64,000 bases of DNA from Phaeobacter sp. 11ANDIMAR09 (GTDB taxonomy: Bacteria > Pseudomonadota > Alphaproteobacteria > Rhodobacterales > Rhodobacteraceae): assembly GCF_001294455.1 (NCBI RefSeq), contig NZ_LIKT01000001.1, positions 248,001 to 312,000 on the forward strand, written 5' to 3'. Of the stretch, positions 6,563 through 59,195 are shown piece after piece. Position numbers and translations under genes: made by a program. The notes beneath the pieces are model-generated. The model saw nothing but the letters and a program-made list of their open reading frames with translations, was not told the DNA's origin and ran no database searches. How positions within the stretch are numbered: position 1 is the first letter of the stretch; the number at the start of each line of letters is the position of its first letter.

Positions 6563-6651
6563 GGGGGAGGCGAGGCTCCCGCCAATCGTCAAATTATCAG
6601 AGATAATTCGCTCTTGTTGGGCCCGGCAGACCGCAAAAGCGGTCTGCGGTT
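6563..6651 (+). repeat. Dispersed structured element, copy A
   Basis: Layout in order: GGGAG (6565-6569) against CTCCC (6576-6580); hairpin AATTATC / GATAATT (6592-6608, loop AGA); core TTGGGCCCGGC (6617-6627); hairpin GCAGACCGC / GCGGTCTGC (6626-6647, loop AAAA). The same order recurs at 43531, 58955 and, on the other strand, 59120-59195. It sits between the convergent phosphatase gene and the Nudix gene. Confidence 0.75.
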
Positions 6652-6671
6652 GCGCATCTTTGTGAGCTCGT

Positions 6672-7142
6672 TCAATCAAAACCCGGCTTTGCACGGGTCC
6701 GGCTTCGCGACAGGTAGAGTTGGGTAAAATGGCGGTCTCCGTCATTGCCGAGCGCCTGAAGAACCTCGGCGGGCTGCATCCAGATGGCGTGATGACCGGC
6801 TTCGCTGGGAGGTCCCATCCTGCGTAGAGGGCGCGCCAGGTAGATGTGACAGATTTTTTCCGCCCAGAGGTCATATTCAGGCATGTAGGTATACCGGCGG
6901 AATGCGCCGAGTCTCTTGGGGGTCCTGATAGACCAGCCGGTTTCCTCAAAGACTTCGCGATGCAGGGCCGGCAGAGGGGATTCTCCGGGGTCGATACCGC
7001 CGCCGGGCAGTTGGATCTCTGGCTGTGGATCCATCTGACGGGTCACCAGAAACCTGCCATCACGGGGCAAAATCGCATAGGCGCCAGGACGCATGCGATA
7101 TCTCTGTTTCTGCTGCGGAACCTCACCAAATCGCCTGATCAT
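6672..7142 (-). CDS. Nudix hydrolase
   Basis: A 156-residue Nudix-fold pyrophosphohydrolase. The box is complete at about residues 48-70: GGIDPGE, seven residues, then REVFEETGW. After the box come YTYMPEYDLWAEKICHIYLA and the strand-forming WMQPAEVLQAL. The substrate cannot be read from the sequence; the family hydrolyses nucleoside diphosphates linked to another moiety. I start at ATG 7142 (MIRRFGEVPQQ); the frame is open to 7199 but the extra 19 residues are not Nudix-like. The last 15 residues (SRSRTRAKPGFD) are basic and probably disordered. It is divergent from hslO. Confidence 0.88.
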   Translation of the reverse strand: MIRRFGEVPQQKQRYRMRPGAYAILPRDGRFLVTRQMDPQPEIQLPGGGIDPGESPLPALHREVFEETGWSIRTPKRLGAFRRYTYMPEYDLWAEKICHIYLARPLRRMGPPSEAGHHAIWMQPAEVLQALGNDGDRHFTQLYLSRSRTRAKPGFD

Positions 7143-7219
7143 CTGCGCCCCCTTCACTCTATCGTGGAAAACCCTATATAGGCTCGATATGCCAATCACC
7201 GGCGCTTAAGGAAACCCCC

Positions 7220-8227
7220 ATGACCGTTGGATCAGAAATGTCTCTTGGATCAAAAATTGCATGGGACGATACCGTCCTGCCTTTTCAGCTTGATGCCTCC
7301 GATATGCGGGGCCGCGTGGTGCGGCTTGATTCGGCGCTTGATGGCATTCTGAAGCAGCACAACTACCCCCCCCAGGTCGAGGCCCTAGTGGCTGAGATGG
7401 CTTTGCTGACTGCCATGATCGGGCAGACGATGAAACTGCGCTGGAAATTGTCGCTGCAGGTCCAGTCCAAAGGGCCGGTACGGATGATTGCCACCGACTA
7501 CTACGCGCCTGAGGCAGAGGGCGAGCCGGCCCGGATTCGCGCCTATGCCAGCTATGACGCGGATCGGCTGACGCCAGGCGCGCCATTTGATCAGGTGGGC
7601 GAGGGGTATTTTGCGGTGATGATCAATCAGGGCGAGGGCACCAAACCCTATCAGGGCATCGCTGCGCTGGATGGCGAATCGCTGGCGGCCTGTGCTGGCG
7701 CCTATTTTGCCCAGTCCGAGCAGCTGCCGACGACCTTTACCCTGACCTATGGGAAATCCTCTGGCCCTGGCGTTGCCGAACATTGGCGTGCAGGTGGCGT
7801 GATGCTGCAGCATATGCCAAAGGCCTCCCCCTTTGTGGCTTCGGATGCTGCGGGCAATGGCGCCACGCTTCAGGCCGCAGATCTGGTTGATGGCGAGACT
7901 GAGGAGAACTGGAACCGCGTCAACACGCTGCTGAACACCGTCGAGGAGCTGGAGTTGATTGGTCCCTCGATCACCCCGACCGAGCTGTTGCTGCGTCTGT
8001 TTCACGAGGAAGCGCCACGAGTATATGAAGCACAGACGGTTCACTTTGGCTGTACCTGTTCCGAAGAGCGTGTGCGCCAAAGCCTGTCGATCTATTCGGC
8101 CAAGGACATCGCCACCATGACCACAGAGGAGGGTCGGGTGACAGCTGATTGCCAGTTCTGTAGCGCGCACTATGATCTGGACCCTAAAACGGTTGGCTTT
8201 GAAGCGGAAACAGCAGCAGGTGACTGA
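7220..8227 (+). CDS. hslO: Hsp33 redox-regulated chaperone
   Basis: Hsp33 is a holdase activated when oxidation or heat releases zinc from its C-terminal cysteines. The 335-residue protein has the zinc motif C278-x-C280 (FGCTCSE) and C311-x-x-C314 (DCQFCSAHY), with the usual spacing of about 30 residues. The N-terminal substrate-binding domain includes GRVVRLDSALDGIL and RMIATDYY. The ATG at 7220 follows AAGGAA at normal spacing. It is the first gene of a tight run with a CoA-type Nudix gene and cca, each overlapping the next. Confidence 0.96.
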   Translation: MTVGSEMSLGSKIAWDDTVLPFQLDASDMRGRVVRLDSALDGILKQHNYPPQVEALVAEMALLTAMIGQTMKLRWKLSLQVQSKGPVRMIATDYYAPEAEGEPARIRAYASYDADRLTPGAPFDQVGEGYFAVMINQGEGTKPYQGIAALDGESLAACAGAYFAQSEQLPTTFTLTYGKSSGPGVAEHWRAGGVMLQHMPKASPFVASDAAGNGATLQAADLVDGETEENWNRVNTLLNTVEELELIGPSITPTELLLRLFHEEAPRVYEAQTVHFGCTCSEERVRQSLSIYSAKDIATMTTEEGRVTADCQFCSAHYDLDPKTVGFEAETAAGD

Positions 8228-8816
8228 CCTGCGGCAAAAGCTGAAGGCGGCATTGGCGCAGCAAGGGGCGGGATCGTCTGATTTTGATCTCAACCCCGAC
8301 CTGGTGCTCCCCGGCGCCCGCAGGCTGCGCCCTGCGGGGGTTCTGGTGGCAATTTCTCTGTTTGAAGAGGCGCCTCGGGTCATCCTGACCAAACGGTCTT
8401 CGGCCCTGAAACACCACCCCGGTCAGATTGCTTTTCCTGGTGGCAAAGTGGACCAGAGCGACGCTGATGTCACCGCTGCTGCGCTGCGGGAAGCCTGGGA
8501 AGAGATCGGCCTGCCGCCTGAATTGCCTGAGGTGATTGGTCATCTGCCCAACCATGAGACCGTGACCAGTTTTCAGGTGACGCCAGTGGTGGCGCTGCTG
8601 CATGAATGCTTTCAGATACGTCCCGAGGCGGGCGAAGTGGCCGAGGTGTTTTCGGTGCCGCTTGCCCATCTGCTGGAACCTGCCAACTATATCATTGCCT
8701 CGCGCAGCTGGCGTGGCACCCGGCGGCATTACTACACCGTGCCGTTTGGGCCCTACTACATCTGGGGCGCAACCGCGCGTATGCTGCGGAACCTGGCCGG
8801 GGCGCTACAGTCATGA
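8220..8816 (+). CDS. Nudix hydrolase, CoA pyrophosphatase type
   Basis: About 198 residues, related to NudL/YeaB enzymes that split CoA or acyl-CoA into phosphopantetheine and 3',5'-ADP. The family signature precedes the box: LTKRSSALKHHPGQIAFPGGK, with the Nudix core ALREAWEEIGL shortly after. I propose the GTG at 8220, which overlaps the hslO stop; an ATG at 8172 would overlap hslO by 56 bases. The 3' end overlaps the cca start (ATGA), so translation is probably coupled. Confidence 0.85.
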   Translation: MTDLRQKLKAALAQQGAGSSDFDLNPDLVLPGARRLRPAGVLVAISLFEEAPRVILTKRSSALKHHPGQIAFPGGKVDQSDADVTAAALREAWEEIGLPPELPEVIGHLPNHETVTSFQVTPVVALLHECFQIRPEAGEVAEVFSVPLAHLLEPANYIIASRSWRGTRRHYYTVPFGPYYIWGATARMLRNLAGALQS

Positions 8817-9982
8817 CGCTGGCTGCTGAAGCCTGGCTGAATGATCCGGCAACACAAAGCGTCTGTTCCGCGCTGACCGCAAATGGCGCCCAGGCCCTGT
8901 TTGTCGGCGGCTGCGTGCGCAATGCCCTTATGGGAGTTGCTGTATCTGATATTGATATCGCCACGGATGCCACCCCAGAGGAGGTTCTGGCATTGGCGAA
9001 GGCTGCTGGGATCAAGGCGATCCCGACTGGGATTGAGCATGGCACCGTGACACTGGTGAAGAATAAGATCCCGCATGAGGTGACCACCTTTCGCAAGGAT
9101 GTGGCCACCGATGGCCGTCGGGCCGTGGTGGCCTTTTCCAAAGAGATCGCGGAGGACGCGGCGCGGCGCGATTTCACCATGAACGCGATCTACGCCCACC
9201 CGGATGGCACAATCGTTGATCCCCTTGGGGGGCTCGCGGATCTCCTGGCGCGACGCCTGCGCTTTATCGGTATCGCCGAAAACCGCATTCGCGAGGATTA
9301 TCTGCGCACCCTGCGCTATTTCCGCTTTCACGCCTGGTATGGCGATCAGGAAGCAGGATTTGATCCTGAGGCTTTGGCGGCAATTGCAGCCAATCTTGAC
9401 GGGCTGTCACAGCTGTCTTTGGAGCGGGTCACGGCTGAATTTTTGAAACTTCTGCGGGCCCCGGATCCAGCACCGGCCATTGCGGTGATGCGCCAGATTG
9501 GTGTTCTGGGGCAGGTCTTGCCGGGTGCGGATGACCGGGCTTTGGCACCCCTGGTCCATCTACAGGGGCAGTTTCCGGACAGAGATGCCTCTTTTGATCC
9601 GATCTGCCGGTTGGCTGCGCTGGGCGGCGCGGCGTTGCAGGATCATCTGCGCCTAAGCAAGGCAGATGGCCGACTGTTGGTACAGCTGCGAGAGGCGGCA
9701 GTGGATACAATGGCAGCCGCTGAGCTGAGCTATCGGTTCGGGCGAGAGGTGGCACTTCAGGTGGTAGTGCTGCGCGCGGCCCTGCTAGAACAGCCGGTTT
9801 CGCTCGGTTTGGACCCAGATCTCAGGCTTGGAGCGACTGCAGCCTTTCCGCTCAAAGCGGCTGACCTGATGCCGGGTCTGTCCGGTGCTGCCCTCGGGGC
9901 GGCGCTGAAACAGCTGGAAGCTGCCTGGGTGAGCTCAGGCTTTCGGCTTAGCCGTGCAGAGCTATTGCAACAGTTGAAATAA
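8813..9982 (+). CDS. cca: CCA tRNA nucleotidyltransferase
   Basis: Adds or repairs the 3'-CCA of tRNAs using CTP and ATP. The 389-residue product has the nucleotidyltransferase head LFVGGCVRNALMG with the metal-binding acidic pair in SDIDIAT, then TTFRKDV and the neck motif EDAARRDFTMNAIY, all diagnostic of class II CCA/poly(A) enzymes. It continues into the helical tail (REDYLRTLRYFRFHAWYG). The ATG at 8813 overlaps the preceding stop by four bases; the longer upstream frame is a shadow of the Nudix gene. No HD domain is evident. Confidence 0.95.
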   Translation: MTLAAEAWLNDPATQSVCSALTANGAQALFVGGCVRNALMGVAVSDIDIATDATPEEVLALAKAAGIKAIPTGIEHGTVTLVKNKIPHEVTTFRKDVATDGRRAVVAFSKEIAEDAARRDFTMNAIYAHPDGTIVDPLGGLADLLARRLRFIGIAENRIREDYLRTLRYFRFHAWYGDQEAGFDPEALAAIAANLDGLSQLSLERVTAEFLKLLRAPDPAPAIAVMRQIGVLGQVLPGADDRALAPLVHLQGQFPDRDASFDPICRLAALGGAALQDHLRLSKADGRLLVQLREAAVDTMAAAELSYRFGREVALQVVVLRAALLEQPVSLGLDPDLRLGATAAFPLKAADLMPGLSGAALGAALKQLEAAWVSSGFRLSRAELLQQLK

Positions 9983-10092
9983 CGCCACAGCTGCTGAGAT
10001 CTGCCCGCCTAACGGACAATCCGGTGGTGACAGGGGGCAGAATCTATGGCTAATTCCGCCTAGCCAAAACAATCATGCCGGGAGGAATGCGA

Positions 10093-10119
10093 ATGTACTA
10101 CGGGATCTGGTTTAGCTAA
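10093..10119 (+). CDS. Eight-codon candidate leader peptide (MYYGIWFS)
   Basis: ATG 10093 is preceded by GGAGG (10081-10085) with a seven-base gap, an ideal Shine-Dalgarno, and reads MYYGIWFS then TAA at 10117. An ATG at 10087 in the same frame would add two residues but lies one base from the GGAGG. The peptide is aromatic-rich, unlike a random frame here. It ends 94 bases before the first ABC exporter gene, and two hairpins lie between them. I infer a leader that could control the exporter by ribosome stalling or attenuation; no function is shown. Confidence 0.5.
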   Translation: MYYGIWFS

Positions 10120-10129
10120 AGCCGTACCG

Positions 10130-10159
10130 CCCGTTTCAGAACGGGGGCGCGGCGTCGCC
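10130..10159 (+). promoter_or_regulatory. Paired hairpins after the leader ORF (possible attenuator)
   Basis: CCCGTT (10130-10135) pairs with AACGGG (10140-10145) over a TCAG loop, and directly abutting it GGCG (10146-10149) pairs with CGCC (10156-10159). A pyrimidine-rich stretch ending in TTTTT follows. The first hairpin begins 10 bases after the leader stop codon, so a ribosome paused on the leader would cover its base. Whether this terminates transcription is not clear from the sequence. Confidence 0.35.
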
Positions 10160-10213
10160 TCTTGTCTGCATTTTTGCATTCCCTATCTGCTCAAGTAACT
10201 GGAGCGCCCTGTC

Positions 10214-12052
10214 ATGTTTCGTTTTTTTGAAAATCTCATTGATCCTTATTGCGACTACCCGGAAACGGATCAGCCACCGACCCGGCTCTGGCCCTTTCTC
10301 AAGGCCTATTCTCAGCCGTTCAAAGCCGTGTTCATCTTGACCGCCTGTATGTCTGTGGTGGTGGCGGCGATTGAAATTGGCCTGATCTACTACATGGGGC
10401 GGGTGGTTGACCTGCTGTCGAACCCGCCGGAACAGGTTTGGCAGAACTACGGAACCGAGCTGATCCTGGTGGCGCTGTTCATTCTGCTATTGCGGCCTTT
10501 GCTGCAGCTGGCGGATGTCTTGCTGCTCAACAACAGTATTCTGCCGAACTTTGGAACACTTATTCGCTGGCGGGCCCATAAACATGTGTTGCGCCAATCT
10601 GTCTCTTGGTTTGAGAATGACTTTGCCGGCCGGATTGCCAACCGGATCATGCAGACCCCACCGGCCGCAGGTGAAGTGGTGTTTCAGGTCTTTGACGCCA
10701 TCACCTTTTCGCTGGCCTATCTGGTGGGCGCGGCGATCATGCTGATGGTTGCGGATGCGCGCTTGATGCTGCCTTTGCTGGTCTGGTTTGTACTCTACGG
10801 GTTCTTGGTGCGCTGGACGATTCAGCGGGTGGGGCCTGCCAGCCAAGCGGCCTCTGATGCGCGATCAACGGTGACGGGTCGGGTGGTGGACAGCTATTCC
10901 AACATCCATTCGGTCAAGATGTTCGCCCATGATAATCGGGAACTCGACTATGCAAAAGACGCCATCGAGAACACGCGGCTGACCTTCCAGAAGGAAATGC
11001 GCATCTTCACGGTGATGGACGGTGTTCTCGTCTCGTTGAACGGGCTGCTGATTGTTGGGGTGGTCGGCTGGGCGCTGCATCTGTGGATGATTGGCGCCGC
11101 CTCGGCTGGAGTGGTTGCGGCGGCAACCGCGCTGACATTGCGGCTCAATGCCATGACCGGCTGGATCATGTGGGCGCTGACCTCGTTCTTTCGCCAGCTT
11201 GGTGTGGTGGCCGAAGGGATGGAGACAATCGCCCAACCCATTGATCTGGTCGATGTCGCGAAAGCCAAACCGTTGCAGCTGTCCCAGGGTGAGGTCACGC
11301 TCAAGGATCTGTCGCATCACTATGGCCGCGAGGCGGGCGGTTTGGATCAGCTGAATCTGGTGATCAAACCCGGGGAGAAGATTGGCCTTGTGGGGCGCTC
11401 GGGTGCGGGCAAGTCGACTTTGGTCAAGCTGTTGTTGCGGTTCTATGACCCAGATGCGGGGCAAATCCTGGTGGATGGTCAGAATATTGCTGCCGTCACC
11501 CAGGATAGTCTGCGCAGCAAAATTGGCATGGTGCAGCAGGACAGTGCGCTTCTGCATCGCTCGGTGCGGGACAACCTGCTTTATGGGCGGCCCGATGCCA
11601 GCGAAGATCAGATCATCGCTGCCGCCAAACAGGCGCAGGCGCATGAGTTCATTCTGGACCTTGAGGATCCCCAGGGGCGGTGTGGCTATGACGCTCATGT
11701 GGGCGAGCGCGGTGTCAAACTGTCCGGCGGCCAGCGTCAGCGTATCACCCTGGCGCGGGTGATCCTGAAAGATGCGCCGATCCTGCTGCTGGATGAGGCC
11801 ACCTCGGCCCTGGATTCCGAGGTGGAGGCCGCCATTCAGGAGACCCTCTATGGCATGATGGAGGGCAAGACGGTGATCGCTATTGCACATCGCCTGTCCA
11901 CCATCGCACGGATGGACCGCATTCTGGTACTGGATCAAGGCCAGATCGCAGAGCAGGGTAGCCATGAAGAGCTATTGCAGGCCCAGGGGCTATATGCGCA
12001 GTTCTGGGCGCGCCAGTCCGGCGGATTCTTGAATATCGAGGCAGCAGAATGA
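10214..12052 (+). CDS. ABC exporter half-transporter, first subunit
   Basis: A 612-residue type IV (MsbA-like) half transporter. Residues about 35-330 form a six-helix transmembrane domain; the C-terminal ATPase has Walker A GRSGAGKST, signature LSGGQRQR, Walker B ILLLDEATSALD and the H-loop histidine in AIAHRLST. All ATPase motifs are canonical. It overlaps the next gene by four bases (ATGA), and the two proteins share long stretches such as AQFWARQSGGF at their ends, so they probably form a heterodimer that arose by duplication. The substrate is unknown; lipids, peptides or drugs are typical. Confidence 0.92.
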   Translation: MFRFFENLIDPYCDYPETDQPPTRLWPFLKAYSQPFKAVFILTACMSVVVAAIEIGLIYYMGRVVDLLSNPPEQVWQNYGTELILVALFILLLRPLLQLADVLLLNNSILPNFGTLIRWRAHKHVLRQSVSWFENDFAGRIANRIMQTPPAAGEVVFQVFDAITFSLAYLVGAAIMLMVADARLMLPLLVWFVLYGFLVRWTIQRVGPASQAASDARSTVTGRVVDSYSNIHSVKMFAHDNRELDYAKDAIENTRLTFQKEMRIFTVMDGVLVSLNGLLIVGVVGWALHLWMIGAASAGVVAAATALTLRLNAMTGWIMWALTSFFRQLGVVAEGMETIAQPIDLVDVAKAKPLQLSQGEVTLKDLSHHYGREAGGLDQLNLVIKPGEKIGLVGRSGAGKSTLVKLLLRFYDPDAGQILVDGQNIAAVTQDSLRSKIGMVQQDSALLHRSVRDNLLYGRPDASEDQIIAAAKQAQAHEFILDLEDPQGRCGYDAHVGERGVKLSGGQRQRITLARVILKDAPILLLDEATSALDSEVEAAIQETLYGMMEGKTVIAIAHRLSTIARMDRILVLDQGQIAEQGSHEELLQAQGLYAQFWARQSGGFLNIEAAE

Positions 12053-13896: not shown

Positions 13897-13924
13897 TTTT
13901 GCCAAGAGCGGCGTCTCAGCATAG

Positions 13925-13967
13925 AAAACCCGGCTTTCTCCTGGATTGTCGGGTTTTGTCCTTTTTT
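13925..13967 (+). terminator. Probable terminator of the ABC exporter genes
   Basis: AAAACCCG (13925-13932) pairs with CGGGTTTT (13950-13957) around a 17-nt loop, followed by a T-run (13962-13967). It lies 28 bases beyond the second ABC gene. Confidence 0.6.
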
Positions 13968-13996
13968 CATTGGGCCACAGTCGCTATCTAGCCCGA

Positions 13997-15244: not shown

Positions 15245-15289
15245 TCCCGACCCTAATTCGACTGTAGAGCTGAACGGAGCCTGACGACT

Positions 15290-41924: not shown

Positions 41925-43481
41925 ATGATCAATTTTCGTGCGGCGATCTGCGCCGCACTTCTCCTTTTTGCCCCTGTGGGACTGGCCCAGGCGCAGGATG
42001 TCACCCTGTCCTCCCCGGATGGGGTGGTTGAGATCACCGGCAATCTTCTGGGCTTTGATGGCGAATTCTATCGGGTCGAGACTAAGTTTGGCGAATTGAC
42101 CCTGGATGGTTCAGGGGTCAGTTGCGAAGGGCCGGGCTGTCCCAGCCTGTCGGATTTTGTCGCTGAGGTGACCCTGTCTGGATCGGCAAATATGGCCGAG
42201 GTGCTCCTCCCCTCGCTGATCGAAGGCTTTGCCCTGCGCAACGGCTATAAAACCCAACGAGTCTCGCTGCCGGATGGGGTATTTGAATATCTTCTGTTGC
42301 AGAGCGAGGGCCGCCCCGTGGCGCGGTTTTCCTTTCTGGTCAGCTCGACCGATGAAGGTTTTGGCGACTTGATTGCGCAGCAGGCCGATATTGTCATGGC
42401 TCTGCGGGAAATTCGCCCGGAAGAGCAAAAACAGGCCCGCGCTGCTGGGCTGGGGGATATGACAACCGCTCTGCGCAGCCGAATTGTGGCGCTGGATGCC
42501 ATGGTGCCGGTGGTGTCGCCTGAAAACCCGGTGACTCGGATTTCAATCCCAGATCTGGCAGGGATCTTTTCCGGGGCGATCACCAATTGGCAGGTGCTGG
42601 GGGGGCCGGATGCGCCGATTTCGGTGCATATGCCGCTGGCATCCTCTGGCCTGACCCAGGGGTTTGCAGACCGGGTTCTGGCGGCTTCTGGTGTGGAGCT
42701 GACACAGGAATTGCGCCACCACGAGCGGGGCACCTCCCTGGTGCGCCGGGTGGCGACGGACCCCTTTGCAATCGGCATCGCTAGCTTTTCCAATCTGGGC
42801 ACCGCGCGGATGTTGACGTTGACCGGCGCCTGCGGGTTTTCCCTGCGGGCCAACCGACGTGGGATCAAGACCGAGGATTATCCGCTGACCGCGCCGATGT
42901 TCCTTTATCTGCCGCAGCGCCGCCTGGCCAAGGTGGCGCGGGAATTCCTGGCCTATGTGCGGGGACCAGGAGCGCAGATCGTGATCCGTCGCGCAGGGTT
43001 TGTCGATCAGGCGCCAGAACATATTTCAATGAATGCCCAGGGGGACCGGCTGAGCAATGCCATTTTGGCGGCAGGCCCTGAGGTCGAGCTGGCGGAATTG
43101 CAGCGCCTGGTGAAACGGCTGACGGGGTTTCGCCGTCTCACTACGTCCTTCCGGTTCGAGGCGGGGTCTGCGCGCCCGGATGCACAATCGCGCAGCAATG
43201 TCGCGCAGCTGGCCCGGGCGCTGGAGACCGGGCTCTATGATGGCAAGGTGCTGAACTTTGTGGGTTTTTCCGATGGCGACGGGGCGGCTTCGGGCAACCG
43301 GGCCATTGCCCTGAAACGGGCCGAGCGGGTGCGCGACGCGGTTTTGGCCACGGCAGAGGAGGGCAGTGTCGCCCGGGTCGAGATCAAGGTGGAGGCCTTT
43401 GGAGAGGCGCTGCCAATGGCCTGTGATGACAGCGACTGGGGTCGTCAGGTCAACCGCCGCGTTGAGGTCTGGGTGAAATAA
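41925..43481 (+). CDS. PstS-like binding domain fused to OmpA C-terminal domain
   Basis: 518 residues. Signal peptide 1-23 (ends AQAQD). Residues about 25-390 resemble phosphate-type periplasmic binding proteins (ISIPDLAGIFSGAITNWQVLGG, ELRHHERGTSLVRRVATDP, PLTAPMFLYLPQ). Residues about 400-518 are an OmpA-like peptidoglycan-binding domain with SFRFEAGSARPDAQSRSNVAQLARAL and GNRAIALKRAERVRDAV. Such fusions hold a sensor domain to the cell wall. Ligand unknown; the ligand-binding residues of PstS are not clearly kept. Confidence 0.85.
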   Translation: MINFRAAICAALLLFAPVGLAQAQDVTLSSPDGVVEITGNLLGFDGEFYRVETKFGELTLDGSGVSCEGPGCPSLSDFVAEVTLSGSANMAEVLLPSLIEGFALRNGYKTQRVSLPDGVFEYLLLQSEGRPVARFSFLVSSTDEGFGDLIAQQADIVMALREIRPEEQKQARAAGLGDMTTALRSRIVALDAMVPVVSPENPVTRISIPDLAGIFSGAITNWQVLGGPDAPISVHMPLASSGLTQGFADRVLAASGVELTQELRHHERGTSLVRRVATDPFAIGIASFSNLGTARMLTLTGACGFSLRANRRGIKTEDYPLTAPMFLYLPQRRLAKVAREFLAYVRGPGAQIVIRRAGFVDQAPEHISMNAQGDRLSNAILAAGPEVELAELQRLVKRLTGFRRLTTSFRFEAGSARPDAQSRSNVAQLARALETGLYDGKVLNFVGFSDGDGAASGNRAIALKRAERVRDAVLATAEEGSVARVEIKVEAFGEALPMACDDSDWGRQVNRRVEVWVK

Positions 43482-43530
43482 AACCGAGGCTTTCCTGAGC
43501 GGTCGGCGGGTCGGGTGAGCCCAAAAGAGG

Positions 43531-43606
43531 GGGGAGCTCCCGCAGCTTTTGAGCTCATCACAGATGAGTCAAAGCGCTTTGGGCCCGGCGCCGCTGGCGC
43601 GGCGCG
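43531..43606 (+). repeat. Dispersed structured element, copy B
   Basis: GGGAG/CTCCC (43532-43541); hairpin CTCATC / GATGAG (43554-43568, loop ACA); core TTGGGCCCGGC (43579-43589); hairpin GCGCCGC / GCGGCGC (43588-43605, loop TGGC). Same order and strand as copies A and C. It lies between the convergent PstS-OmpA gene and radC. Confidence 0.75.
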
Positions 43607-43632
43607 GTTGCTCTGCTTTGCTGCAGCAGCGG

Positions 43633-44421
43633 TTACAGCAGCCCCTCGGATTTGAAGCTCAGTTCAGTGGCGCTGCCGATGATAAGATGGTCATGCAATA
43701 GGATGCCTAGCGGTTTTAGAGCCTGATTGATCCGTTCGGTCATGTCGATATCGCTGGCAGAGGGCGAAGGGTCGCCCGAGGGGTGGTTATGGACCAAGAT
43801 CAGCGCGCTGGCGTTGAGCTCGAGCGCCCGTTTGGCCACTTCGCGCGGGTAGACGGGCACATGATCGACAGTGCCACGGGCCTGCTCCTCATCGGCGATG
43901 AGACAGTTTTTGCGGTCCAGAAACAGCAGCCGGAAATGTTCGATGCTGCGATGCGCCATAGTGGTGTGACAATAGTCCAGCAGGGCGTCCCAGCTGGAGA
44001 TCACCTGGCGCTGCATCACCCGGGCGCGGGCCATCCGTTGGGCTGCAGCCTCGAGTACCTTGAGATCGGTGATTAGCGCCTCGCCGACGCCTTTAACCTG
44101 GGCCAGCCGTTCGGGGCGCGCACTGACGACGCGGGCAAAATCGCCAAACTGTTTGAGCAGCTGATGCGCCAGCGGTTTCACATCCTGTCGCGGTAACGAG
44201 CGGAACAGGACCAGTTCCAGCAGCTCGTAGTCCGGCATGGCAGCCGCGCCACCTTCGCAGAAGCGTTGGCGCAGGCGCATGCGGTGGTCCTTGATATAGG
44301 AGGGCAGCCGACTGGCGCTGAGCGACGCAGTTGATGGCGTATTCTGCGCCAAGACCTCGTTGGAAAACAGGGGGAGGGTCGCGGTGTCGCCTGCGAAGCT
44401 TTTAGCCTTGTTGCCTGCCAT
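43633..44421 (-). CDS. radC: RadC-family JAB1/MPN protein
   Basis: 262 residues. After an N-terminal helix-hairpin-helix-like part (about 55-130, RLAQVKGVGEALI), the JAMM metal-binding site is complete in LILVHNHPSGDPSPSASD. RadC was named for a repair phenotype now doubted; its true function is not known. The ATG 44421 has AGGA seven bases upstream. It stands between dnaJ (same strand, upstream) and a convergent gene. Confidence 0.93.
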   Translation of the reverse strand: MAGNKAKSFAGDTATLPLFSNEVLAQNTPSTASLSASRLPSYIKDHRMRLRQRFCEGGAAAMPDYELLELVLFRSLPRQDVKPLAHQLLKQFGDFARVVSARPERLAQVKGVGEALITDLKVLEAAAQRMARARVMQRQVISSWDALLDYCHTTMAHRSIEHFRLLFLDRKNCLIADEEQARGTVDHVPVYPREVAKRALELNASALILVHNHPSGDPSPSASDIDMTERINQALKPLGILLHDHLIIGSATELSFKSEGLL

Positions 44422-48708: not shown

Positions 48709-49530
48709 CTAGCGCCGGGCGTTCCAGCTGATTGAGACATGGCGGCGGGTGTAGAACTCGCCCATCAGGCCGATCATCACCAGCCCCAGAGCAACCCAGG
48801 CAGAATATTGCCAGCTGCTGTAATGCGGGTTGTAGTTGATAAAGACAAAGCCGCGCGCCTGATCAATGCAGTGAAACAGTGGGTTCCAGTCGAACAGGGC
48901 CAGCATGAAACTGGGCAGGGTATTGGCCAGGAACATCTTGCCCGAGGCAATCATATTGGCCCGCTGGTAAATCAGGGTCATGATGCCGACAACGCCTGGG
49001 GCCCAGGGTTTGAGTACCAAAAAGACCAATCCAACTGCGGCGCCAGTGACCCAGGCCAGCATGACCATGCCATAGGCCTGGATCGGTTGTTCGATCTCCA
49101 GCGGGGTAAAGGCCACGTGATAGACAAAGAGGATCAGAAACAGGGACACCGTCTGAATATAGAGCGAGCCAAGTGCTGCCGAGAGAATCGCCACCATGGT
49201 GTTCATCGGCGCGTGTTGCATCATCGGGCTGGCGGGGCCTTCGGCTCCGGCAACGGCGCCTACCGTTTTGGTATGGGTCAGAAACAGAAAAACCCCGGAC
49301 ATCACATAGAGCAAAAAGTCGCCGCGAATGGCTGAGCCACGCATCCCCAGAATCGAGAACATGATATAAAAGACAATGACAAACATCACCGCCTGCATGA
49401 TGTTCATGGACAAAGCGATTAAAGCATTGTTGTGCTTTGAGCGTACGCTGCGCACGATCGAGTGAAACACCACCTCACACAAGGAAATGAAACTCGAAAA
49501 CCGATTCTGCTTGGTCCGAACCTGAAACAT
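48709..49530 (-). CDS. ABC-2 type polysaccharide export permease (KpsM-like)
   Basis: 273 residues with about six membrane helices and the ABC-2 pattern of capsule exporters (KpsM/BexB/Wzm): SIVRSVRSKHNNALIALSMN at the N-terminus, then hydrophobic segments, PMMQHAPMNTM and a C-terminal FYTRRHVSISWN. It should form the membrane channel for a lipid-linked polysaccharide. No ATPase partner (kpsT) is beside it; the pair must be completed elsewhere. The ATG 49530 was chosen over a TTG at 49578. It is divergent from cysQ. Confidence 0.85.
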   Translation of the reverse strand: MFQVRTKQNRFSSFISLCEVVFHSIVRSVRSKHNNALIALSMNIMQAVMFVIVFYIMFSILGMRGSAIRGDFLLYVMSGVFLFLTHTKTVGAVAGAEGPASPMMQHAPMNTMVAILSAALGSLYIQTVSLFLILFVYHVAFTPLEIEQPIQAYGMVMLAWVTGAAVGLVFLVLKPWAPGVVGIMTLIYQRANMIASGKMFLANTLPSFMLALFDWNPLFHCIDQARGFVFINYNPHYSSWQYSAWVALGLVMIGLMGEFYTRRHVSISWNARR

Positions 49531-51398: not shown

Positions 51399-51422
51399 CG
51401 CCCTTAAAGACATTAATGGGCG
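51399..51422 (+). promoter_or_regulatory. Inverted repeat in the galU upstream gap
   Basis: CGCCC, TTAA (51399-51407) pairs with TTAA, T bulge, GGGCG (51413-51422). It is in an AT-rich 242-base gap before galU; it could be the kdsB terminator (TTTGA follows) or an operator. I see no clear promoter. Confidence 0.35.
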
Positions 51423-51504
51423 TTTGACTGCTGAGCTGACTGTCCAGGTGGTTGTCTCTTGGTGAAATTGAATTTGTCCTGGACGTAGATTGGTGAGAAA
51501 TCTG

Positions 51505-52407: not shown

Positions 52408-52487
52408 GCGGCGGGATTGAAAGGCATGGCCCTGCGGCAACTGCGGGCGGGGCCAGCAACATAAAACTCCTGAGAGGCGTTATTAAC

Positions 52488-53471: not shown

Positions 53472-53473
53472 AT

Positions 53474-54517
53474 ATGGAACCAGCCCGCGCAGCCGCATTC
53501 TCACCGCCGGGCTGGCGACAAGGGTATCGGTTGCGTTTGAAACGGCGACGATTGCTGTGGCGGTCGCTGCGGTCGCGCCATCAGCTGCGCTCAGTGGTGG
53601 ACCGCACGGGTCTTATCAAACCGGGCGATATTCTGGGCTTTGTGGTGCTGAGAAATGAAAGCGCCCGTCTGCCCTATTTCTTGCAGCACTACCGGGCGCT
53701 GGGGGTTTCGCAGTTTCTGGTGGTCGACAACGGCAGCACCGATGGCAGCGGTGCGTTCCTGGCCGGTCAGCTCGATGTCTCCTTGTGGCAAACTGAGGCA
53801 AGTTATCGCGCGGCACGGTTTGGGCTGGATTGGAGCAGCTGGCTGCAGATGCGCTATGGGCACGGTCATTGGTGTCTGACCGTGGATGCGGATGAGCTGC
53901 TGATCTATGACGGCTTTGAGCACCATGACCTACCGGATCTGACCGCAGTGTTGGAGGATCAGGCGATCCCCGGTTTTGGCGCCCTGATGCTGGATCTTTA
54001 CCCCAAGGGGCCGCTGGGCACCCAGAGCTACGTGCCGGGGCAGGATCCCTGCGAGGTTTTGCCCTGGTTTGACACGGGCCCCTATCGGGCCAGCCGTCAG
54101 GCGCCTTTGGGAAATCTTTGGCTGCAGGGGGGCGCCAGGGAGCGGGTGTTCTTTGCAGATGCGGCGCAGCGATCACCAACACTGAACAAGATCCCGCTGA
54201 TGAAATGGAACCGGCGTTACGCCTATGCAAATTCAACCCATTCGATCCTGCCTCCGGCTTTGAATGGGCTCTATGAGGGGCCGGGCGGGGCACAACCGGC
54301 CGGAGTGCTGTTGCACACAAAATTCCTGCCCGAGATTGTTTCCAAATCGGCAACCGAAAAGCAGCGTCAAGAGCACTTCCATACGCCGCAGGATTTTGAC
54401 CACTACTATGACGCCCTGGCGGCGGCCCCAGTCCTGTGGGATGAAAGTTCCCATGAATATAAGGGGTCCGGCCAGCTCTGTACGCTGGGGTTGATGTCAA
54501 ATCTGACTTGGGACTGA
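53474..54517 (+). CDS. Family 2-like glycosyltransferase (Glyco_tranf_2_4), first paralogue
   Basis: 347 residues. A basic N-terminus (YRLRLKRRRLLWRSLRSR) precedes the transferase core: FVVLRNESARLPYFLQHYRALGV, DNGSTDGS, and acidic metal motif VDADELLIYDG. C-terminal half has QGGARERVFF and LNKIPLMKW, shared with its neighbour. No signal peptide. It likely adds a sugar to the surface glycan; donor unknown. The start ATG 53474 is two bases after the galE stop. Confidence 0.85.
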   Translation: MEPARAAAFSPPGWRQGYRLRLKRRRLLWRSLRSRHQLRSVVDRTGLIKPGDILGFVVLRNESARLPYFLQHYRALGVSQFLVVDNGSTDGSGAFLAGQLDVSLWQTEASYRAARFGLDWSSWLQMRYGHGHWCLTVDADELLIYDGFEHHDLPDLTAVLEDQAIPGFGALMLDLYPKGPLGTQSYVPGQDPCEVLPWFDTGPYRASRQAPLGNLWLQGGARERVFFADAAQRSPTLNKIPLMKWNRRYAYANSTHSILPPALNGLYEGPGGAQPAGVLLHTKFLPEIVSKSATEKQRQEHFHTPQDFDHYYDALAAAPVLWDESSHEYKGSGQLCTLGLMSNLTWD

Positions 54518-54745
54518 CCAAAACAGCCGCTGGCCTTTAGGGGGAATTCCTGTTTGGAAGAACCAGGATGCCCTGTAACTGTTTCTAAATCCGTTGTTCC
54601 TAGTATTTTTCCGTGACATATTGCGACATATGGCTGGGATCAGTGTGGCTGCGGGTTTTGCCTTGGTGGATAGGTGATGTGCTGCAATTGATTTTGCCAA
54701 TTGTTTGCATCGTCGGACATTTCTCTTTTCGGGCATGGAGTTGTC

Positions 54746-55756
54746 GTGGGGCTTTGGGATTCTTACCGGATGCGTGTTCGGCGCAAGCGCAGGCTGGTCC
54801 GAGCTCTGCGCAAGTCGCGCGAGCTGAGCTCGGTGCAGGATAATACCCAGGCCATCCGTCCTGAGGATGTGCTTTTGGTTTCTACCATGCGCAACGAACA
54901 GATCCGGCTACCCTATTTTCTGGATTATTATCGCAGGCTGGGGGTCAATCACTTCCTCTTTGTCGACAATGGATCCGAGGATGGCACCAGCGCCTATCTG
55001 CAGGGCATGGGGGATGTTTCTCTGTGGCAGACACGGGCCAGCTATCGGCGCTCGCACTATGGGGTCGATTGGATGAACTACCTCAAGCGCAAATATGCCC
55101 ACGGGCATTGGGTGCTGGTGGTCGATCCGGATGAGTTCTTTATCTACCCGTTCTGTGATACGCGGCCCATTCAGGCGTTGACGGATTGGTTGGACACCTC
55201 GGCTATTCGCAGCTTTTCTGCGATGCTGATTGATACCTATCCCAAGGGCCGCCTCAGCGATACGCCCTATCAAGCGGGACAGAACCCTTTGGAAATCGCC
55301 AATTGGTTCGACAGCGGCAATTACACGATCAGTAAGAACCATATGTATGGCAACCTATGGATTCAGGGCGGGCCACGGGCGCGGGTATTCTTTGCCGATG
55401 AGCCCAAAAAGGCACCAGCTCTGAACAAGATCCCGCTGGTGAAATGGGACCGAAAATATGCCTATGTCAGCTCCACCCATTCCCTGCTCCCGCGGGGGTT
55501 GAACCAGGTCTATGAGACTGACGGGGGCGAAAAGGCCAGCGGAGCGCTGCTGCATACTAAATTTATTGATACCTTTGGCACCAAAGCCAAGGAAGAGCTG
55601 GCGCGCAGTCAGCACTATGCCAATTCGCGCGAATACAAGGCCTACGCCGAAGGACTGGATCAGCAGCCTGAGCTGTGGTGCAAGTGGAGCGAAAAATACA
55701 TCAACTGGCGGCAGCTTGAAATCCTGGGACTGATGTCCAAAGGAAACTGGGCATGA
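54746..55756 (+). CDS. Family 2-like glycosyltransferase (Glyco_tranf_2_4), second paralogue
   Basis: 336 residues, clearly a tandem paralogue of the gene before it: RLPYFLDYYRRLGVNHFLFVDNGS, SLWQTRASYRRSHYGVDW, acidic motif VDPDEFFIY, QGGPRARVFFADEP and LNKIPLVKW align block by block. I propose GTG 54746, which has GGAG five bases upstream; a TTG at 54701 adds 15 residues. Its end overlaps the next gene (ATGA). The 228-base gap before it may hold a promoter. Confidence 0.85.
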   Translation: MGLWDSYRMRVRRKRRLVRALRKSRELSSVQDNTQAIRPEDVLLVSTMRNEQIRLPYFLDYYRRLGVNHFLFVDNGSEDGTSAYLQGMGDVSLWQTRASYRRSHYGVDWMNYLKRKYAHGHWVLVVDPDEFFIYPFCDTRPIQALTDWLDTSAIRSFSAMLIDTYPKGRLSDTPYQAGQNPLEIANWFDSGNYTISKNHMYGNLWIQGGPRARVFFADEPKKAPALNKIPLVKWDRKYAYVSSTHSLLPRGLNQVYETDGGEKASGALLHTKFIDTFGTKAKEELARSQHYANSREYKAYAEGLDQQPELWCKWSEKYINWRQLEILGLMSKGNWA

Positions 55757-57456
55757 GCAGCGTCGGGATCATCATGCTGGTGCATACTGCGCTGGATCGC
55801 GCCGCCGAGGTGGCGCGCCATTGGACAGCCAGCGGCTGCCCGGTGGTGCTGCATGTCGACAAGAATGTTGATGGTAAGACCTACAAAGCATTCCGCCAAA
55901 GCCTGGCACAGGATCCGTTGATCCAGTTCTGTAAACGGCATCGATGCGAATGGGGCACCTGGGGCATTGTCGCGGCCTCGCAATCGGCCTCGTCCCTGAT
56001 CCTGAAACAATTCCCCGAGGTGCGCCACGTTTATCTGTCGTCGGGGTCCTGCCTGCCGCTGCGCCCGGTCGAGGAGTTGATCGACTATCTTGCTGCCCGC
56101 CCGCGCACAGATTTCATCGAAAGCGCAACCACGGCGGATGTGCCTTGGATTGTGGGCGGGTTGGATTTTGAGCGCTTCACTCTGCGGTTTCCTTTCTCCT
56201 GGAAAAAGCATCGCTATCTGTTTGACCGCTATGTCGATCTGCAGCGCCGATTGCGAATGCGGCGACGCATCCCTGCAGGGTTGGTGCCCCATATGGGCAG
56301 CCAATGGTGGTGCCTGACCCGGCAAACCCTGTCGGCCATTCTGGAAGATCCTGACCGGGCGAGTTACGACGCCTATTTTCGCAAGGTCTGGATCCCGGAT
56401 GAAAGCTATTATCAGACTCTGGCACGACAGTATTCCACCAATATTGAAAGCCGTTCGCTGACCCTGTCCAAATTCGATTTCCAGGGCAAGCCGCATATCT
56501 TTTACGATGACCACCTGCAGCTCCTGCGGCGGTCGGATTGCTTTGTCGCGCGCAAGATCTGGCCGCGGGCGGACCGGCTGTACCAGGCCTTTTTGACCGA
56601 TAGTGCCGGGGCGATGAAAAAGACCGAACCCAACCCGGGCAAGATCGACCGCATCTTTGCCAAGGCGGTGGAGAGGCGCACCAGGGGCCGTCCGGGGCTC
56701 TATATGCAAAGTCGTTTCCCCAGGCGTTGGTCGGTCAATAGCGTTACCTCGAATCCCTATTCAGTGTTTCAGGGGTTTTCCGAGCTGTTTGAAGATTTTG
56801 AGAGCTGGCTAACGCGGATCACCGGGGCGCGGGTACATGGGCATCTTTTTGCGCCTGAGCGGGCCGAACTGGCCGGGGGCGGGGCGATGATCAATGGTGC
56901 GCTGACCGATGGCGCCAAGATGCGCGATTACAGCGCGCAGAGCTTTCTGACCAACCTGATCTGGAATACACGGGGCGAGCGTCAGTGCTTTCAGTTTGGA
57001 CCGGGTGACAATCAGAAGATCTGTAAGGTGCTAGCCCGCGATCCCAATGCGCAGATTTCAGTGATCAGTGGGGCCTGGGCAGTGCCGTTATTCCGCTCGA
57101 ACCAGAATTTCACCGAGCTGCGCCGCGAAGCCGCCCGCTTGCAACAGATTGAGGCCAAGTATCTGACCCTGCTGCGGGACCAGAAGACCAAGGCGCGGGT
57201 GCGCATCTGGTCCATGGCCGAATTCATTGAAGCCCCGATGGAGCCCCTACAAACCATCCTGGATGAGCTGGGACCACAGATCCCCCGCCATTTGAGCGAG
57301 GCACCGACGATGGTGAACCTGGATGGGTTTGGGCAATTCCTGCAGAACCTCAAGAACCAGGGCATGCACCCCTACCTGATGGGGGATTTCCCGGTAGAGC
57401 AGGGGCCGATAAACATGCCAAAACCTCCCAGAAAACCCTATCTGGTGCGAAAATAG
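55753..57456 (+). CDS. GT14 (Branch) glycosyltransferase with extra C-terminal domain
   Basis: 567 residues. The N-terminal 270 residues match the GT14/Branch family (IIMLVHTALDRAAEVARHW, VVLHVDKNVDG, WGTWGIVAASQSASSLIL, YLSSGSCLPLRPVEEL, HMGSQWWCLTRQT, WIPDESYYQTL), related to beta-1,6-GlcNAc and xylosyltransferases. The remaining roughly 300 residues form a second domain of unknown function; from memory Roseobacter proteins carry a DUF5927/5928-type extension here, which needs a search. It overlaps its upstream neighbour by four bases. Confidence 0.85.
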   Translation: MSSVGIIMLVHTALDRAAEVARHWTASGCPVVLHVDKNVDGKTYKAFRQSLAQDPLIQFCKRHRCEWGTWGIVAASQSASSLILKQFPEVRHVYLSSGSCLPLRPVEELIDYLAARPRTDFIESATTADVPWIVGGLDFERFTLRFPFSWKKHRYLFDRYVDLQRRLRMRRRIPAGLVPHMGSQWWCLTRQTLSAILEDPDRASYDAYFRKVWIPDESYYQTLARQYSTNIESRSLTLSKFDFQGKPHIFYDDHLQLLRRSDCFVARKIWPRADRLYQAFLTDSAGAMKKTEPNPGKIDRIFAKAVERRTRGRPGLYMQSRFPRRWSVNSVTSNPYSVFQGFSELFEDFESWLTRITGARVHGHLFAPERAELAGGGAMINGALTDGAKMRDYSAQSFLTNLIWNTRGERQCFQFGPGDNQKICKVLARDPNAQISVISGAWAVPLFRSNQNFTELRREAARLQQIEAKYLTLLRDQKTKARVRIWSMAEFIEAPMEPLQTILDELGPQIPRHLSEAPTMVNLDGFGQFLQNLKNQGMHPYLMGDFPVEQGPINMPKPPRKPYLVRK

Positions 57457-57459
57457 ATT

Positions 57460-58890
57460 ATGACAGCTCCTTTTGATTACTTCATTGTCTTTGCCGAAAT
57501 GCGGACGGGCTCCAATTTTCTGGAAACCAATCTCAATGCCTATGAGGATTTGTTCTGCCATGGCGAGGCCTTTAATCCGCATTTTATTGGCTATCCCAAT
57601 GCGGACAATATCCTGGGCATCACCCAGAGCATGCGCGAGGATAACCCAGCCTGTCTGATCGCGCGGATCAAATCGGAACCCGGCGGGCTTGGGGGCTTTC
57701 GCTATTTTCATGACCACGACCCGCGGGTTTTGGATCTGGCGTTGGAGGATCCGCGCTGCGCCAAGGTGGTGCTGACCAGGAACCCCTTGGAGAGCTATGT
57801 GTCCTGGAAGATAGCCCAGGCCACAGGGCAGTGGAAATTGACCAATGTGAAGCGCCGGAAAGAAGCCTTGGCGCATTTTGATAGTGGTGAGTTCTCCCGT
57901 CATGTTGCGGCACTGCAGGATTTTCAAATCACCCTGCTGAACCGTTTGCAGAAATCCGGGCAAACCGCTTTTTACCTTGCCTATGAGGACCTACAGAGCC
58001 TCGATGTGATGAATGGTCTGGCGCGCTGGTTGGGGTCGCAGACTCAGCTGGAAGCGCTGGATGACAGTTTGAAACGGCAGAACCCGGCGCCGGTGGTCTC
58101 CAAGGTCGAAAACCCGAACGTCATGGCAGAGGCCCTGGCGGGGATGGATCGATTCAACCTGAGCCGCACGCCCAATTTTGAACCCCGTAGGGGGCCTGCG
58201 GTTCCCAGCTATGTCGCCGGGGTGGTGACGCCGCTGCTCTACCTGCCGATCAGAGGCGGGCCGGAAACAGAGGTAAAGGCCTGGATGGCGGGGCTGGACA
58301 ATGTTGAGCCAAACGGCCTGATCCAAAAGATGAACCAAAAGCAGTTGCGGCAATGGAAGCGGGGAAATCCCGGATTTCGCAGCTTTACGGTGCTGCGGCA
58401 TCCGGCAGCCCGGGTGCATTCGGTGTTCTGTCGCCGCATTCTGCAAAAAGGGGGCGACAGCTATGGCGCAATTCGCGAAACCCTGAGGCGGCAGTTCAAG
58501 CTGCCGCTGCCCAAGGATGGCCCTGACGCGGGTTATAGCAAGGCGGATCACTACGCTGCTTTCTCGCAGTTTCTGACCTTTTTGCAGACCAACCTGGCGG
58601 GGCAGACCTCGGTTCGGGTGGATGCGGAATGGGCCAGCCAGTCGCAGGCGTTATCGGGGTTGGCGGAGCTGGGCGCACCGGACCTGGTGTTGCGCGAAGA
58701 GGAGCTGGCAGAGGCCCTGCCTGATCTGGCGCGCCGGATGGGACGCGCCACGCCGGGCCAACCAGAGACGGCCCGCGAGGATCAGCCCTATTCATTGGCA
58801 GAGATCTGGGATGCTGCTTTGGAAAAGCAGATCTCAACCCTGTATCAGCGCGACTATGTGATGTTTGGGTTTTCATCCTGGCGGGCCTAG
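57460..58890 (+). CDS. Sulfotransferase, NodH-like, two-part
   Basis: 476 residues. The first half has the PAPS 5'-phosphosulfate loop FAEMRTGSNFLETN (R15-S18) and 3'-phosphate motif VVLTRNPLESYVSW, as in Stf0/NodH-type enzymes. The second half starts a further sulfotransferase-like motif, FTVLRHPAARVHSVFCRR. It should transfer sulfate from PAPS to a carbohydrate. Relatives in Roseobacters are often labelled nodulation protein NodH. CysQ in the same cluster fits. The start is ATG 57460, three bases after the previous stop. Confidence 0.85.
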   Translation: MTAPFDYFIVFAEMRTGSNFLETNLNAYEDLFCHGEAFNPHFIGYPNADNILGITQSMREDNPACLIARIKSEPGGLGGFRYFHDHDPRVLDLALEDPRCAKVVLTRNPLESYVSWKIAQATGQWKLTNVKRRKEALAHFDSGEFSRHVAALQDFQITLLNRLQKSGQTAFYLAYEDLQSLDVMNGLARWLGSQTQLEALDDSLKRQNPAPVVSKVENPNVMAEALAGMDRFNLSRTPNFEPRRGPAVPSYVAGVVTPLLYLPIRGGPETEVKAWMAGLDNVEPNGLIQKMNQKQLRQWKRGNPGFRSFTVLRHPAARVHSVFCRRILQKGGDSYGAIRETLRRQFKLPLPKDGPDAGYSKADHYAAFSQFLTFLQTNLAGQTSVRVDAEWASQSQALSGLAELGAPDLVLREEELAEALPDLARRMGRATPGQPETAREDQPYSLAEIWDAALEKQISTLYQRDYVMFGFSSWRA

Positions 58891-58954
58891 GCTGGATTGC
58901 TCTGCTGGCGGACCGAAGGTCTGCCGGCAGGCCGATGGGGGTGGTCTGAGAGCA

Positions 58955-59037
58955 GCGGGAGGCTCCCGCCCCCCAAAAGTGTTTTGCAAGCAAAACCCTA
59001 TTGAGCCTTGGGCCTGGCGCCGCCCTGCGTGCGGCGC
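58955..59037 (+). repeat. Dispersed structured element, copy C
   Basis: GCGGGAG / CTCCCGC (58955-58969); hairpin GTTTTGC / GCAAAAC (58981-58996, loop AA); core TTGGGCCTGGC (59008-59018); hairpin GCGCCGC / GCGGCGC (59017-59037, 7-nt loop). Confidence 0.75.
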
Positions 59038-59119
59038 TGCACAGCTTTCTAGCAAGCCCTCTGTGACATGAGAGCCCGGACCGAACCTGGCCACAGGGGC
59101 CTGAAAATCGCGCGGGCGC

Positions 59120-59195
59120 ATGAGAACTCCAAAGGAGTTTTCATGCCGGGCCCAACGGGCAGAGATCTTTGACAAAGATCGATTGACGGGCGGGA
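59120..59195 (-). repeat. Dispersed structured element, copy D
   Basis: On the minus strand: GCTCCCGCC near 59194 (its 5' pairing half is not evident), hairpin GATCTTTG / CAAAGATC (59180-59164, single-base loop), core TTGGGCCCGGC (59155-59145), then hairpin ATGAAAACTCC / GGAGTTCTCAT (59144-59120, loop TTT, one mismatch). It is the sense direction of ptsN, just beyond the ptsN terminator. Confidence 0.7.

Follow-up and report, generated by a model that had tools for sequence, protein, structure and literature searches.

The window analyzed here is a 64,000-nucleotide (nt) stretch of Phaeobacter sp. 11ANDIMAR09 (contig NZ_LIKT01000001.1, positions 248,001 to 312,000 of the forward strand). A first-pass annotation, made from the letters alone, had described four intergenic copies of an element composed of a CTCCCGC box, a short variable hairpin, a TTGGGCCYGGC core, and a second hairpin. 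We found all four copies where it had placed them, with matches of 43.7 to 83 bits to our covariance model R1, and we found that they belong to a family larger than these four. Throughout, the S strand is the strand reading CTCCCGC ... TTGGG, which the first-pass annotation had used, and the A strand is its reverse complement. The copies and their neighboring genes, with gene domains assigned by Pfam, are as follows.

5217..6506, plus strand: gene with response regulator and SpoIIE phosphatase domains, upstream of copy 1
6564..6656, plus strand: copy 1 (R1 match, 72.8 bits), with the box at 6576-6582, variable hairpin 1 at 6583-6616, the core at 6617-6627, and hairpin 2 at 6626-6647
6672..7199, minus strand: NUDIX gene, convergent, after copy 1
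41925..43481, plus strand: gene with PBP-like and OmpA domains, upstream of copy 2
43525..43614, plus strand: copy 2 (R1 match, 83 bits), with the box at 43537-43543 and the core at 43579-43589
43633..44421, minus strand: RadC-like gene, convergent, after copy 2
57460..58890, plus strand: sulfotransferase family gene, upstream of copy 3
58951..59046, plus strand: copy 3 (R1 match, 59.1 bits), with the box at 58963-58969 and the core at 59008-59018
59109..59208, minus strand: copy 4, inverted partner of copy 3 (R1 match, 43.7 bits), with the box at 59190-59196 and the core at 59145-59155
59296..59760, minus strand: PTS EIIA 2 gene, upstream of copy 4 on the minus strand

Each of the four copies is in a convergent gap, as had been claimed, with the NUDIX gene as the right-hand neighbor of copy 1. 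Copy 1 starts 57 nt past the stop codon of the response regulator/SpoIIE gene. For copy 2, the distances are 43 nt from the stop of the PBP-like/OmpA gene behind it and 18 nt to that of the RadC gene facing it. Copy 3 follows the sulfotransferase-like gene at 60 nt, and 87 nt separate copy 4 from the stop of the PTS EIIA-like gene, also convergent. The pattern CTCCCGC N15-45 TTGGGCC had 4 matches in the window compared to 0.01 expected from shuffles. The 11-base core with one mismatch was uninformative by itself (5 matches in the window, 6.47 expected).

In the source genome (G000; 4.7 Mb in 101 contigs), the exact core TTGGGCCYGGC had 50 matches compared to 3 for a reversed control, and 29 of the 50 carried an upstream box at a suitable distance. 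R1 was built from 23 of these 29 box-plus-core copies and found 63 copies in the source genome at a cutoff of E ≤ 0.01; 28 of the 29 sites were among the 63, and one, L039, was not. Eleven genomes of the same genus held 37 to 70 matches each (E ≤ 1e-4, up to 70 candidates per genome scored). Across a sample of 246 Rhodobacteraceae genomes, one per genus and including the source genome, the element was matched in at least 26 genera at E ≤ 1e-7. This count is a lower bound because only 17 candidates per genome were scored. A covariance model had been proposed by the first-pass annotation as a check, and its reach thus extends through the genus and to other genera. Exact matches to a strict pattern were found in 57 stretches, with Pseudophaeobacter, Roseobacter, Phaeobacter, Leisingera, Tritonibacter, Epibacterium, Falsiruegeria, and Seohaeicola among the records. 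Rfam scans, at gathering scores and by E value, returned no family for the element, in agreement with the earlier remark that no named family is known to have this layout. Two copies drew weak hits to SorX, SorY, and ncS54 (E, 0.045 to 0.4), all far below gathering scores and at chance level. The sole Rfam match above the cutoff in the window, Cis2_sRNA, is located away from the element.

The module of the first-pass annotation is about 94 bp long. Its S-strand consensus is a polypurine (A/G-rich) tract, CTCCCGC, a variable hairpin 1 (often with a C-ANA-G loop), TTGGG, 3 to 4 bases, RGC, and hairpin 2, which in many copies is followed by GGYYGCGC. The boxes are common to the copies: CTCCCGC and TTGGG are nearly invariant, and a GC/TT internal mismatch is conserved. 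Hairpin 1 differs among most of the 63 own copies, with a few subfamilies of similar hairpin 1 within one genome by our reading.

Our structural alignments were fitted to the covariance model and hence lean toward the modeled structure. For the 63 own copies, 89.9% of cells were paired, compared to 68.8% after shuffling and 37 to 46% when the columns were slid by 1 to 3. Two-sided changes occurred in 17 of 23 pairs, a weaker measure for these copies, since 25 of 500 shuffles reached it. The pairing excess was repeated in 109 distinct same-genus and named copies (of 114 rows; 89.8% paired versus 69.4% shuffled) and in 77 copies from other genera (92.6% versus 71.0%). Covariation, the test that the first-pass annotation had suggested, is strong in all three data sets and supports a fold under selection.

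The boxes themselves take part in this fold. At the pair adjoining them, the own copies had 44 CG, 13 GC, 1 AU, and 5 other combinations, and the C-G to G-C swap was seen again among same-genus and named copies (86 to 11) and in other genera (66 to 9). The swap shows that hairpin 1 is enclosed by a single stem formed from box and core, with CCCGC paired to TTGGG through the conserved G.T and C/T mismatch. One model pair of this stem (columns 21-96) is mostly unformed (45 of 63 own copies), and unconstrained folding of single sequences gave the stem in just one of the four window copies, copy 2. The middle hairpin is therefore closed by box-core pairing and is not the separate hairpin first described. 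The quoted hairpins are present and do pair while differing in sequence, except that the arms of copy 4 hold one A.C mismatch; hairpin 2, said to start at or just after the core, starts with the GC of the core. Its loop is four bases long in 96 of 165 cases; on the S strand, T is the first base in 75 of these and C the last in 66, so that these loops read as GNNA on the A strand.

When own copies were compared with 300 nt of flanking sequence, homology extended about 120 nt beyond hairpin 2 in at least 11 of them. This second module, B, folds into a three-way junction, TCAAGGG/CCCTTGA around two hairpins, followed by a long hairpin with GGGCAG..CTGCCC. Among 28 B sequences, double changes occurred in 20 of 33 pairs, and 91.8% of cells were paired versus 78.1% shuffled. 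A model of B, R2, had 20 matches in the source genome, of which 18 were strong (E ≤ 1e-17; L301-L318) and none lay in the window. Thirteen of the 18 strong copies sit on the hairpin 2 side of an R1 copy (13 of the 63 own elements) and are read on the opposite strand, 11 directly adjoining it and 2 about 50 nt away. The remaining five are not beside an R1 element, and three of them lead into a further hairpin module (GCGCGGTAGCGC or similar) that has a T-rich tail. In the 246-genome sample (14 candidates per genome scored for B), B was present in at least 38 genera and R1 in at least 26, with 6 genomes common to both; the modules have therefore spread independently. Rfam has no family for B, and we found no shared host gene, as the 10 neighbors scanned at nine loci were unrelated housekeeping or unknown genes. 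The element first described is thus one module of a larger mosaic and not a self-contained unit. A third module, the hairpin GCGCGGTAGCGC (or one with a GGAA loop) and a T-rich tail, follows B in L310, L313, L316, L321, L325, and L330, near the end of the convergent neighbor in several of these loci.

We examined conservation at the three window gaps, whose preceding genes are present in 12 of 12 genomes of the genus. Judged by R1 (E ≤ 0.001) and by reading, the element is kept in 10 of 12 genomes at gap 1, in 11 of 12 at gap 2 (the core is decayed in G008), and, for the plus copy, in 10 of 12 at gap 3 (weak in G009). None of the three gaps holds the element in G010, which makes this genome a natural loss line; in G006, it is missing from two. 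G010 also has the fewest copies in the genus (37). The own copy could be compared with those of relatives in 26 of 33 possible cases; those left out were G010 (3), G006 (2), G009 at gap 3, where the pattern found no element, and G004 at gap 3. Element identity (0.66 to 0.92) exceeded that of fourfold sites of the neighboring gene (0.40 to 0.64) in 26 of 26 comparisons, and upstream flank identity was 0.06 to 0.59. Because element and flank were measured on gapped alignments and fourfold sites were not, the fairer contrast is with aligned random sequence, for which identity is about 0.56 over the length of the element and 0.52 over that of the flank. Against this level, the excess is clear in gaps 1 and 2 (0.67 to 0.92) and smaller in gap 3 (0.66 to 0.76). 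Hairpin 1 is locus specific and recognizably kept at each locus, so homogenization between copies does not explain the conservation. At these three gaps, purifying selection keeps the copies once they are in place.

Between genera, the picture differs. Genes matching those of gaps 1 and 2 were taken from 16 genomes selected in other genera, and 27 of their loci were scanned with R1, four paralogue loci of G096 being excluded. No R1 match at E ≤ 1 was found in 26 of the 27, and one (G210, gap 2) had an inverted copy. Most of the 21 loci that we inspected run into apparently the same next gene after a short gap, with synteny judged by eye. Gap positions are therefore common within the genus and mostly not between genera. 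The locus L277 may hold a decayed copy of the element. In L273 (3095-3185, minus strand), the gap after the PBP/OmpA gene of another genus carries the element inverted, by independent gain or by a flip.

Placement was assessed for 212 copies (63 own, 72 from loci L153-L209, and 77 from other genera), with (+,+) and (-,-) denoting one-way gaps and (-,+) divergent gaps. Of the own copies, 52 lie in convergent gaps, 5 in (+,+), 4 in (-,-), and 2 in (-,+) gaps, and none of the 63 overlaps a predicted gene by more than 40 nt; 1 of the 72 copies from L153-L209 overlaps a predicted gene. Overall, 145 copies were convergent, 31 (+,+), 25 (-,-), 4 (-,+), and 7 at a locus edge, with a lower convergent share in other genera (41 of 77). 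The claim that copies lie at 3' ends of messages is supported as to gene ends; that they are simply in the sense direction is not supported, given the 31 versus 25 orientation counts in one-way gaps. In convergent gaps, the remark on sense direction carries no weight because either orientation is sense to one gene. The first-pass annotation had named both orientations in the same gene context as a finding that would tell against it, and one-way gaps show this. A scan of 11 loci for a tRNA upstream of copies with odd context found none.

Position relative to stop codons depends on the side of the element. For unpaired convergent copies, the box side is a median of 18 nt from the stop codon (57 of 90 within 30 nt) and the hairpin 2 side a median of 60 nt (27 of 90). 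Among unpaired copies in one-way gaps, 16 of 22 in (+,+) gaps have their box side no more than 30 nt from the stop, and 2 of 15 in (-,-) gaps have the hairpin 2 side that near. According to PMC5082802, ribosomes of Escherichia coli can be stalled by repetitive extragenic palindromes (REPs) that lie no farther than 15 nt from a stop codon. Adjacent copies less than 600 nt apart were arranged "plus then minus" in 39 of 39 pairs. At L097 1668-1822 and L114 3300-3474, inverted copies overlap at their hairpin 2 ends by 39 and 17 nt, as if both strands were served by one palindrome.

Mismatches bear on which strand folds. We parsed stems in 169 of 172 distinct elements and in 75 of 77 from other genera; the p values are only rough guides, the sequences being related. 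On the S strand, A.C cells outnumbered G.U cells by 44 to 12 in own copies (p 2e-5) and by 53 to 24 in others, 97 to 36 in sum, and by 41 to 20 in other genera. Part of this excess consists of recurrent A.C cells around the seventh or eighth pair from the hairpin 1 loop; cleaner counts restricted to the inner stem and hairpin 2 gave 18 versus 4 (own), 24 versus 8 (others), and 14 versus 9 (other genera). Under a looser stem definition, hairpin 2 showed no bias (A.C 22, G.U 21; 165 copies). The A strand had the lower predicted RNA folding energy in 41 of 63 own copies, in 64 of 106 others, and in 49 of 75 copies from other genera. On its A strand, B had 29 G.U versus 17 A.C cells (p 0.10), and a comparison set of 26 terminator-like hairpins had 15 G.U and 10 A.C in sense. 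We read the excess of A.C over G.U on the S strand as a sign that the A strand, or both strands, must fold, with the S strand alone disfavored. Covariation upholds a selected fold, as first proposed; the mismatch excess is the opposite of what folding on the S strand would lead one to expect.

Taken together, we favor the reading that this is a dispersed, modular, structured repeat resembling REPs and bacterial interspersed mosaic elements (BIMEs), kept locus by locus at the 3' ends of mostly convergent genes as a barrier to read-through or exonucleases, and we hold it tentatively, at slightly less than an even chance. A transcript running past the stop codon into the gap would form a series of highly stable hairpins, and these would block read-through into the convergent neighbor, shield the new 3' end from exonucleases, or both. 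Pairing would have to hold on both strands because both neighbors read the same DNA. The rarity of both G.U (1.5%) and A.C (4.1%) relative to Watson-Crick cells on either strand is what a requirement for pairing on both strands would produce. Our data show the family, its fold, conservation at three gaps, placement at gene ends, and the modular build. We infer that the fold acts in RNA, in both directions, and as a barrier; this mechanism is drawn from where the copies lie, from selection locus by locus, from strict Watson-Crick pairing, and from the roles reported for REPs (PMC5082802, PMC1525189).

Several points weigh against this reading. Strict palindromes are also predicted by a role at the DNA level, and the one-strand mismatch bias is unlike a symmetric demand on both strands. 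Both orientations occur in one-way gaps, also among unpaired copies (22 versus 15), and four copies sit in divergent gaps. The identities of 0.66 to 0.70 in gap 3 are little above the random level, and the flanking genes were predicted with a codon-usage script trained on the window, not taken from annotation. Canonical terminator tails were found in 58 of 247 copies (30 on the A strand, 29 on the S strand, 1 with both). In one-way gaps, the T content of the tail follows the direction of the neighboring gene weakly (p 0.05 to 0.09), which is no more than suggestive.

A DNA-level element is a serious rival, if an unlikely one. Here the palindromes would matter in DNA form, whether duplex, cruciform, or single stranded; they might, for instance, bind a topology or nucleoid protein in convergent gaps. 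G.U is rare on both strands and one-way gaps hold both orientations, as such a role would have it. The GNNA loop motif, which the four-base hairpin 2 loops form on the A strand, is very stable in single-stranded DNA. Convergent gaps are also favored by REPs, and the E. coli REP/BIME is reported to bind Pol I, gyrase, and IHF (PMC1525189). A symmetric duplex role is harder to square with the strand-specific mismatch bias and with a box side that hugs stop codons in (+,+) gaps when the hairpin 2 side does so less in (-,-) gaps.

Two further readings place the fold on the A strand. B, hairpin 3, and the element first described might together make up a large structured RNA of several domains (about 220 nt) on the A strand; it would be a new class, with tens of copies, whole or of the first-described part, each tuned and conserved at its own locus. 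Such an RNA would end just before the stop codon of the convergent neighbor and shield gene 3' ends from antisense read-through; we regard it as unlikely. Quite unlikely, in our view, is a one-strand A-strand RNA that would be the 3' untranslated region (3'-UTR) of the gene on the hairpin 2 side, ending just before the convergent neighbor, in the order B, hairpin 3, hairpin 2', hairpin 1', then GGCGGGAGCCCCCCUUU. The S-strand A.C excess, the lower A-strand folding energies, the G.U excess of B, and a pyrimidine tract after hairpin 1' all fit it. However, the 31 copies in (+,+) gaps have no predicted neighbor reading the A strand, a hairpin with a full U tract is present in just 30 of 247 copies, the bias of B is not significant, and that of hairpin 2 disappears under the looser stem definition.

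The version of the first-pass annotation, a cis-acting 3'-UTR fold in the sense strand of the preceding gene only, accords with the covariation and with the closeness of the box side behind stop codons. It is improbable, as 25 of 212 copies are antisense to both neighbors in one-way gaps and the balance of G.U to A.C on the S strand is the reverse of what this version predicts.

We consider it equally improbable that the family is a selfish dispersed repeat, akin to REP doublets (REPINs) or miniature inverted-repeat transposable elements, with no host function and with gene ends serving as harmless insertion places. The empty gene ends in other genera (26 of 27, the other with an inverted copy), the fixed arrangement of all 39 inverted pairs, and the subfamilies sharing similar hairpin 1 within one genome would suit such a repeat. 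Against it stand the conservation above flank at the three gaps studied, with a locus-specific hairpin 1, and the lack of any match to a Y1_Tnp transposase, of the type associated with REPs (RAYT), in the source genome.

Two candidate systems were rejected. A REP/RAYT (REPIN) system would have its transposase, and PF01797 (Y1_Tnp) had 0 matches in the source genome while 5 of 14 control genomes matched. For an attC-like recombination site, GTTGGGC resembles the core site of the attC consensus, but in 13 of the 63 own copies that place is held instead by a C paired with G, nor does the 5' box complement GTTGGGC.

Ordinary intrinsic terminators with shared ancestry are very improbable: the gene-end position, the T runs that end some copies, and a terminator-like tail in 12% of copies per strand versus 5% (10 of 196) in a coding control agree with them, but a hairpin followed by a T run is missing on both sides of 189 of the 247 copies, and a terminator does not require the nearly invariant CTCCCGC and TTGGG or the GC/TT internal mismatch. 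Terminator-like sites were present in 74 of 113 gaps with the element and in 10 of 21 without, a comparison to which we give no weight because it is confounded by gap length (median, 209 versus 113).

RIME (Rhizobium intergenic mosaic elements) are, like the present family, an alphaproteobacterial mosaic of palindromic modules; they belong to another order. Searches of the open-access literature, with term look-ups in PMC12306157, PMC4809877, PMC1525189, PMC2873474, and PMC5082802, found no published description of this family. We read it as a new Rhodobacteraceae repeat family of the general REP/BIME mosaic kind, and the nearest published kind that we found is the Br-REP1 type. Br-REP1 of Bradyrhizobium was first seen in overlapping 3'-UTRs of convergent genes and occurs in about 200 intergenic regions, with Br-REP2 in at least 50, according to PMC5082802. 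Both are, like the present element, multipalindrome repeats of an alphaproteobacterium whose parts occur alone or with flanking palindromes; unlike them, the present element has a box/core closing stem, a longer locus-specific hairpin, and the multibranched B module. Br-REP1 or a 22-nt part of Br-REP2 had 0 matches in 341 sources, allowing up to 3 mismatches with the first two bases exact. Sequences like the BjsR3 terminator stem-loop are reported in Phaeobacter (PMC5082802). The E. coli REP/BIME shares with this family its many intergenic copies, preference for convergent gaps, inverted pairs, and mosaic build (in part from PMC1525189). In contrast, copies of the present family have the boxes in common and for the most part differ in their stems, individual loci are conserved from one species to another, and the source genome is without a Y1_Tnp match.

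To our knowledge, little is understood, beyond a few model bacteria, about what stops convergent genes from running into one another. The present family offers a large set of conserved, covarying elements at convergent gaps, together with gaps lacking the element in sister genera, an inverted copy at one gap, and losses within the genus. This set makes the role of repeat-derived 3' structures directly testable. These data also suggest that REP-like repeats can be under purifying selection locus by locus and are not parasitic only.

Two further observations concern the window itself. In six relatives (L142-L147), the orthologues of the window gene 5217-6506 have a TAA within the aligned stretch; perhaps the TTG start of the window gene was set too early. 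The match to Cis2_sRNA (Ruegeria cis2 small RNA) spans window positions 48814-48966 on the plus strand with 121.6 bits and lies antisense to a predicted gene at 48709-49530 on the minus strand.

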